Below, piece by piece: positions 6,966-7,121 of a stretch of DNA of 64,000 nt; positions within the stretch are counted from its first letter, which is position 1; every line of letters begins with the position of its first letter. A program made the position numbers and the translations under genes. The notes under the pieces are model-generated. The model worked only from the letters and a program-made list of their open reading frames with translations, made no database searches and had not been told where the DNA came from. Source of the stretch: Xylanimonas oleitrophica (GTDB lineage: Bacteria > Actinomycetota > Actinomycetes > Actinomycetales > Cellulomonadaceae); the NCBI RefSeq assembly GCF_003244315.1, contig NZ_QKWH01000013.1, positions 1 through 64,000 on the forward strand, in the 5' to 3' direction.

Positions 6966-7121
6966 GTCCGGGCCACGATCCGGACACCGGTGCCGACGTA
7001 TCAGCACCCGTCGCGAGCGGGGCCACGAACCCGCTCGCGGAGGCCCGACCCCGGGGCCACGAACCCGGGATCGAGCGGCGCCCCGTGCGGGACGCGGGCA
7101 CCCGGGCCACGAACCGGGTGC
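6966..7121. repeat. Array of four stem-loops sharing the loop GCCACGAA
   Basis: The 405-base gap between ligA and adhE has no gene. It holds four inverted repeats at 6966-6985, 7012-7039, 7050-7069 and 7098-7121. Each has the 8-base loop GCCACGAA (GCCACGAT in the first), or TTCGTGGC read on the strand of the flanking genes. Stem sequences differ but pair: GTCCGG/CCGGAC, CGCGAGCGGG/CCCGCTCGCG, CCCGGG/CCCGGG and GCACCCGG/CCGGGTGC. A weaker fifth copy, with loop GCCACGCGAG, may lie at 6850-6867. Conserved loop with changing stems suggests a structured nucleic-acid or protein-binding element rather than simple sequence duplication. Function is unknown. Confidence 0.7.

Follow-up and report, generated by a model that had tools for sequence, protein, structure and literature searches.

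A conserved array of hairpins with repeated loops downstream of adhE in Xylanimonas oleitrophica and its relatives, a candidate regulatory 3′ untranslated region

What does a run of hairpins with one loop and differing stems do in the space between two genes of the actinobacterium Xylanimonas oleitrophica? The question arose from an initial annotation, made from the letters of a 64,000-nt stretch of the genome (the window), which had pointed to four inverted repeats with a common 8-base loop at 6966-7121 and had offered three readings of them: a protein-binding RNA, a dispersed family of palindromic repeats, or a multi-hairpin terminator. The four repeats are as described: stems of 6, 10, 6 and 8 bp, all perfectly paired, close the loops that begin at 6972, 7022, 7056 and 7106, respectively. 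In forward-strand lettering these GCCACGAW-loop hairpins lie at 6963-7121, and their plus-strand loops read GCCACGAT (6972-6979) and GCCACGAA (7022-7029, 7056-7063 and 7106-7113). They are, however, only four of the eight hairpins (H1-H8) in the predicted fold of an element of ~240 nt, which runs from 7167 to 6928 on the minus (adhE-sense) strand and in which, in RNA sense, H2, H4, H5 and H7 carry the (W)UCGUGGC loop. The annotation had caught the same-loop hairpins at their place and had overlooked two spacer hairpins, a terminator-like hairpin and H1, the loop of which (CUCCUCC) is conserved to the same degree. It had set the array 3′ of adhE and upstream of ligA, with both genes leftward, and profile matches bear out both gene identities. 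The features of the locus, read leftward, are:

9987-10004, minus strand: Rex-operator-like site TTGTGAAAGTCTTCACAT upstream of adhE, core TGTGAAN4TTCACA
9942-9949, minus strand: Shine-Dalgarno (SD) sequence of adhE, AGGAGGAG, with 7 bases complementary to the H1 loop
7201-10002, minus strand: open reading frame of adhE, bifunctional acetaldehyde-CoA/alcohol dehydrogenase (NF010378, 1374.5 bits, cut-off 951)
7167-7194, minus strand: hairpin right 3′ of the adhE stop codon, 12-bp stem, outside the conserved core
7125-7160, minus strand: H1, anti-SD loop CUCCUCC at 7139-7145, invariant in 7/7 genomes
7098-7121, minus strand: H2, loop UUCGUGGC at 7106-7113, loop core altered in 2/7 genomes
7078-7095, minus strand: H3, plain spacer hairpin, loop unconserved, missing from genome G235
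7043-7076, minus strand: H4, loop UUCGUGGC at 7056-7063
7013-7038, minus strand: H5, loop UUCGUGGC at 7022-7029
6989-7008, minus strand: H6, plain spacer hairpin, loop unconserved
6963-6988, minus strand: H7, loop AUCGUGGC at 6972-6979
6928-6961, minus strand: H8, terminator-like hairpin of 14-15 bp that closes the element, with two-sided changes at 5 pairs among seven genomes
4363-6795, minus strand: ligA, NAD-dependent DNA ligase (NF005932, 762 bits, cut-off 369)

The array is not what chance would place there. Elsewhere in the window GCCACGA occurs 48 times on the two strands, in every case with a flanking stem of 4 bp at most. A search for hairpins with 8-nt loops, stems of at least 6 bp and loops no more than one mismatch apart within 200 nt found a group of four at the array; in 100 first-order Markov simulations of the whole window the largest such group was one in 99 and two in a single simulation, and among 5,000 simulated versions of the surrounding 500 bp it never exceeded two. 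Across the 3.49-Mb genome the exact pattern GGGCCACGAWCCS occurs 10 times (its reversed control 0 times), four of these being the array and the other six having fewer than three paired flanking bases each. In a search with a model of the hairpin, R2 scored the four array hairpins at 35.5-37.8 bits and the next match at 26 bits (E 0.27), with 150 of 9,094 first-look candidates scored, so that weak copies could be missed. Neither the exact pattern nor R2 found a second array copy in this genome, and with one locus per genome found by pattern search and model, the suggestion of a dispersed palindromic repeat family loses its ground.

Searches for known families and for copies elsewhere were equally sparse. 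Rfam 15 gave two matches at E ≤10 in window positions 6600-7400, the better at E 3.3 and both below the gathering score, and no match in the arrays of four of the six relatives described below. Model R1, run on 99 genomes of the family and order with filters that may lose diverged copies, matched four array genomes (the other three lay outside this set) and G032, the latter a chance-like match (E 0.49). In a species-genome collection the exact pattern returned 19 stretches, two of them array records (L072, L089) and the other 17 without a stem above 5 bp; the remaining array genomes were missed by this search, and absence elsewhere is therefore unproved. No match was found in the virus contigs or phages searched, and the plasmids gave two short matches in a Streptomyces MFS gene that cover 51 of the 240 bases. 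A literature search on adhE, anti-SD sequences and Xylanimonas small RNAs in actinobacteria turned up nothing on this element.

The array is present in six further genomes, all of them close relatives. A pattern of two loop sites 15-45 nt apart, run against 221 family genomes in 25 genera (reversed control, 0 matches), matched seven genomes in two genera: this genome (genus g1), where one further match lies at C2:92531, and G009, G033, G234, G235, G236 and G239, which are six of the 11 genomes of the Xylanimonas-type genus g10. In all seven the array follows directly on the adhE stop codon, on the strand of adhE and with the same order of hairpins. The hairpin at 7167-7194 has a counterpart in two of the six relatives (G234 and G009; by eye). 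Directly after the array comes ligA in five genomes, whereas in G235 and G236 it starts further off; since the link to adhE holds in 7/7, the array travels with adhE. In those two genomes (L063, L064) other sequence sits between array and ligA.

The remaining g10 genomes (G237, G238, G240, G241 and G242), four of which are less than 80% complete, all have adhE, and the stretch read beyond the gene, of up to 430 nt (244 nt in G241), contains neither loop motif. The loop-less G237 retains an H8-like hairpin after adhE (by eye). On the adhE tree the two array-less genomes included, G237 and G240, are nested within g10, and the genome studied here branches with the two outgroups, apart from g10, which makes one gain before the g1/g10 split, followed by one or more losses, the simplest history. 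The array is thus common by descent in one small clade, and the seven-genome counts given here are not independent. The sequence after adhE was read at 30 loci from the 172 genomes with a match. Eighteen of these loci came from other genera, seven of them from g23, and most of the remaining 11 show a single strong hairpin (by eye). Genus g23 (L102-L105, L108, L110, L111) has a different conserved multi-hairpin region 3′ of adhE, with C-rich loops, in all seven loci read; its terminator loop includes UCCUCC (7/7), and its adhE leaders have CTGGAGGAG (3/3 read).

The seven genomes support the structure and also the strand on which it acts. The fold of the minus strand from 7167 to 6928 is very stable (z = -7.28, with 0 of 200 shuffles as stable). 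In the seven-genome alignment 94.7% of pair cells are paired, against 32-47% when partners are slid, a comparison that favours the tested structure because that alignment was also its source. Two-sided changes affect 15 base pairs, where shuffles average 5.5 (none of 500 reached 15); further pair types were unexceptional (102 of 500 shuffles as high), the sole such measure among five, and RNAalifold gives a small covariation term (-0.08 kcal/mol). On the adhE-sense strand the aligned pair cells include 20 G-U and 4 A-C, and the opposite strand would swap these; as G-U cells so outnumber A-C cells, the RNA under selection is apparently that of the adhE-sense strand. This count, with the position on the adhE strand in 7/7, backs the leftward RNA reading, with the loop as UUCGUGGC, that had been proposed at the outset. 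In four genomes (G033, G235, G236 and G239) no other hairpin lies between adhE and H1 (by eye), and adhE transcripts would for that reason most simply read into the array. H8 was found in 7/7, with a TTTGTG tail in G235 only, and a scan of 6600-7500 for sigma-70-type promoters and T-tailed terminators, patterns poorly suited to high-GC actinobacteria, gave none.

The loops are the most constant part of this RNA. Across the seven genomes pairwise identity is 1.0 for the 7-nt loop cores of H4, H5 and H7 and for the loop of H1, and 0.952 for the four UCGUGGC cores pooled, as compared with 0.21-0.27 in the plain loops, 0.42 in the linkers and 0.67-0.88 in the stems. UCGUGGC is kept in 26 of 28 loops (H2, H4, H5 and H7 in seven genomes); the two exceptions are in H2, whose core is kept in 5/7 and differs at one position in G033 and at four positions in G235. 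Given these changes, and the lack of H3 in G235, not every part can be needed. The first loop base varies freely among copies (identity 0.44), being U, A or G, and the two closing G-C pairs are constant in 15 distinct aligned loop copies whose stems differ in sequence. Loops held constant on changing stems in one alignment are the main evidence that the loops have a function, and the comparison as a whole, in covariation and in loop identity, bears out the original idea of selection on both. Within a genome the first loop base tends to match among copies (G009 has only U, G236 and G239 only A), and there are hints in these sequences of homogenisation between loop copies.

The gene to which the array is attached has candidate regulatory sites of its own. 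The likely start of adhE is a GTG at 9933 (SD and start judged by eye). The core TGTGAAN4TTCACA precedes adhE in 7/7 array genomes and may be compared with the Rex operator consensus of Staphylococcus aureus, TTGTGAAW4TTCACAA (PMC2883068); all seven also have a gene for a Rex N-terminal DNA-binding domain above the Pfam cut-off. Rex-operator-like sites precede adhE in array-less relatives as well, e.g., g23, so the presence of the operator does not depend on the array. A palindrome, TTGTGGTCAGACCACA, adjoins the Rex-like site in the window (10006-10021), with similar ones in the array genomes, g21 and g3 (by eye), and looks like the operator of a second regulator. The adhE SD is CAGGAGGAG in 7/7 array genomes, i.e., CUCCUCC in H1 faces GGAGGAG with 7-base complementarity, and GGAGGAG is present in 4/19 array-less adhE leaders (by eye; 20 fetched, one without a leader). 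Among related genomes that are not independent, this match is no more than suggestive.

Our best explanation, which we regard as evenly poised between right and wrong, is a structured adhE 3′UTR, or an RNA of ~240 nt cut from it, that would act through its loops. A leftward transcript from the adhE promoter would pass through the array and end at H8, and the element would be kept as a long 3′UTR or released as a stable RNA of ~240 nt. The GC-rich stems and the two spacer hairpins would expose five loops, one CUCCUCC and four (W)UCGUGGC, of which the first could pair with ribosome-binding sites, that of adhE (GGAGGAG) included, and the four identical ones may bind one partner repeatedly, be it a protein that binds RNA, as in one reading of the initial annotation, or else an RNA complementary to them. 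Structure, strand bias, conservation and adhE linkage are supported by comparison of sequences, and we infer transcription, processing, Rex control and the partner. The precedent for Rex control is RoxS/RsaE of Firmicutes, described (PMC5419742) as a Rex-repressed sRNA with C-rich regions that pair with G-rich sites. The likeness lies in the C-rich anti-SD loop, and in a Rex-like operator before adhE here as against Rex control there; by that analogy, the RNA would appear at high NADH and would couple fermentation to post-transcriptional control. The differences are that RoxS is expressed from a promoter of its own and carries C-rich regions at four places, whereas the element here follows adhE, with a single anti-SD loop beside four loops of UCGUGGC. 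Rfam revealed no relation in sequence, nor did a promoter scan, a weak test, show a pattern for an own promoter. The stronger claim, of a new, Rex/NADH-driven class of multivalent regulatory RNAs in actinobacteria, released from the adhE 3′UTR, whose four loops would bind an undescribed RNA-binding protein (or one RNA) and whose anti-SD loop would repress translation, we think unlikely as it stands.

Three other readings, as a sponge, as a cis circuit and as a base-pairing regulator, are narrower versions of the best explanation and overlap with it. Sponge RNAs such as CsrB and RsmZ have many hairpins showing one repeated loop motif, GGA, which is bound by CsrA, and the array resembles them in repeating one loop on many hairpins. 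If it were such a sponge, the four UCGUGGC loops would titrate an RNA-binding protein, and four copies of one loop, on constant closing G-C pairs and differing stems, have the anatomy of multivalent protein sites. The motif differs from that of CsrB, as does the location after adhE: GGA occurs only in the A-first copies, where the GG is stem-paired, and in none of the U-first copies. Single copies were also not found elsewhere in the genome by model R2, although the target mRNAs of such a regulator would be expected to have sites, and we know of no protein that recognises a UCGUGGC loop. A sponge in this narrow sense is rather unlikely.

We are no readier to believe in a cis circuit, in which CUCCUCC of H1 would pair with the adhE SD and damp translation in the manner of the icaR 3′UTR. 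Its attraction is the 7-base complementarity in 7/7 and the scarcity of GGAGGAG in array-less leaders noted above, and g23 offers a parallel in its UCCUCC terminator loop and the CTGGAGGAG before its adhE. In S. aureus icaR mRNA, pairing of 3′UTR with 5′UTR controls translation (PMC3868564). Here a motif 3′ of the gene is complementary to the SD of that gene, in 7/7 and with the pairing predicted. In icaR a UCCCC motif reportedly pairs with the SD, and we know of no hairpin array with repeated loops in its 3′UTR. Against the cis circuit, AGGAGG-type SDs are ordinary, so that an anti-SD loop matches many genes; the other four loops are left unexplained; and the genomes are related.

Still less do we favour a multi-hairpin 3′ end that solely terminates the adhE mRNA and shields it from exonucleases, its loops having no specific role, which we judge improbable. 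H8 is a strong terminator-like hairpin, the fold is very stable, and g23 has a (different) hairpin array after adhE too. The invariant loop cores speak against it, as the plain loops of the same RNA vary freely and four identical loops would be superfluous in a stabiliser; the plain multi-hairpin terminator of the initial annotation fares no better, since only H8 looks like a terminator.

Base pairing in trans, with the UCGUGGC loops targeting mRNAs that contain GCCACGA, seemed to have a candidate. Within the window GCCACGA is absent from the sense strand of adhE; pairing with the adhE start was rejected, as ACCACGAAG at codons 3-5 in the window is missing from G033, G236 and G235. The search for targets in trans covered GCCACGA up to 18 nt after a start codon or before an SD in all seven array genomes. 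The groEL leaders were dismissed, with the pattern in only 2/7. In the leader of a rhodanese-like gene (named by eye), GCCACGANCGATGGAGG lies just upstream of the start codon in 7/7, and CUCCUCC could pair with the adjoining SD. Its variable base N is A in G000, G009 and G234, each with at least two U-first loops, and T or C in the four genomes without any U-first loop. This association, however, corresponds to no more than a single change on the adhE tree, and G033 and G239 (2/7) give an A-C mismatch. Moreover, GCCACGANCGATGGAGG forms the 3′ portion of an S-box SAM riboswitch (RF00162), which scores 44.6 bits in G236, 44.4 in G009 and 35.5 in this genome against a cut-off of 44.4 (three of the seven scanned). 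The riboswitch pairing covaries across genera (CGTGGC/GCCACG vs CCTGGC/GCCAGG), and relatives without the array retain GCCACG (in 15 of the 27 riboswitch loci that were read, of 30 fetched). Because GCCACG has this intrinsic partner and occurs without the array, the rhodanese leader was rejected as a specific target, and base pairing of this kind is very improbable.

The search brought other observations with it. The S-box-type riboswitch lies at L243 2569-2678, minus strand (35.5 bits in this genome), with the same leader in L237-L242, and near it, on the opposite strand, is a SAM-IV riboswitch (L243 2867-2979, plus; L240 1243-1358, minus; L242 1286-1398, minus), i.e., two SAM riboswitch classes stand back to back. 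In one genome only, the first 14 kb of the plasmid-like 88.6-kb contig G033:C2 (L278) has six places (7269, 6836, 5351, 4172, 3022 and 1814, all minus strand) with a common leader of ~40 nt ending in GACCAYCCGCCACGA, followed within the search pattern by SD and start codon in five of six; the GCCACGA in these leaders is complementary to the core of the array loop.

That the array acts as DNA, whether as palindromic sites for binding or recombination or as a dispersed repeat, is scarcely credible: every hairpin is also a DNA palindrome, but one locus was found per genome, the phages gave no match and the plasmids only the two short ones (51/240 bases), and the G-U asymmetry and covarying stems indicate RNA.

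Tandem hairpins with conserved loops also recall the ANTAR-target RNAs of actinobacteria, which are described as having paired stems and hexanucleotide loops with conserved A1 and G4, with one predicted example in Xylanimonas (PMC8164766). Set against that description, the loops here have 8 nt and begin with U, A or G. The element works like a regulatory 3′UTR, a sponge and a C-rich sRNA, and it fits the full definition of none of them as far as these are testable; its combination of parts is unusual. To our knowledge, few regulatory 3′UTRs have been characterised in actinobacteria, and neither an RNA chaperone nor a sponge of CsrB type is widely known there. A fermentation gene with a Rex-like operator, followed by an anti-SD loop and four loops that are nearly identical, would offer a handle on an RNA-binding protein or a riboregulatory circuit, for which the conserved loop is a ready pull-down bait.
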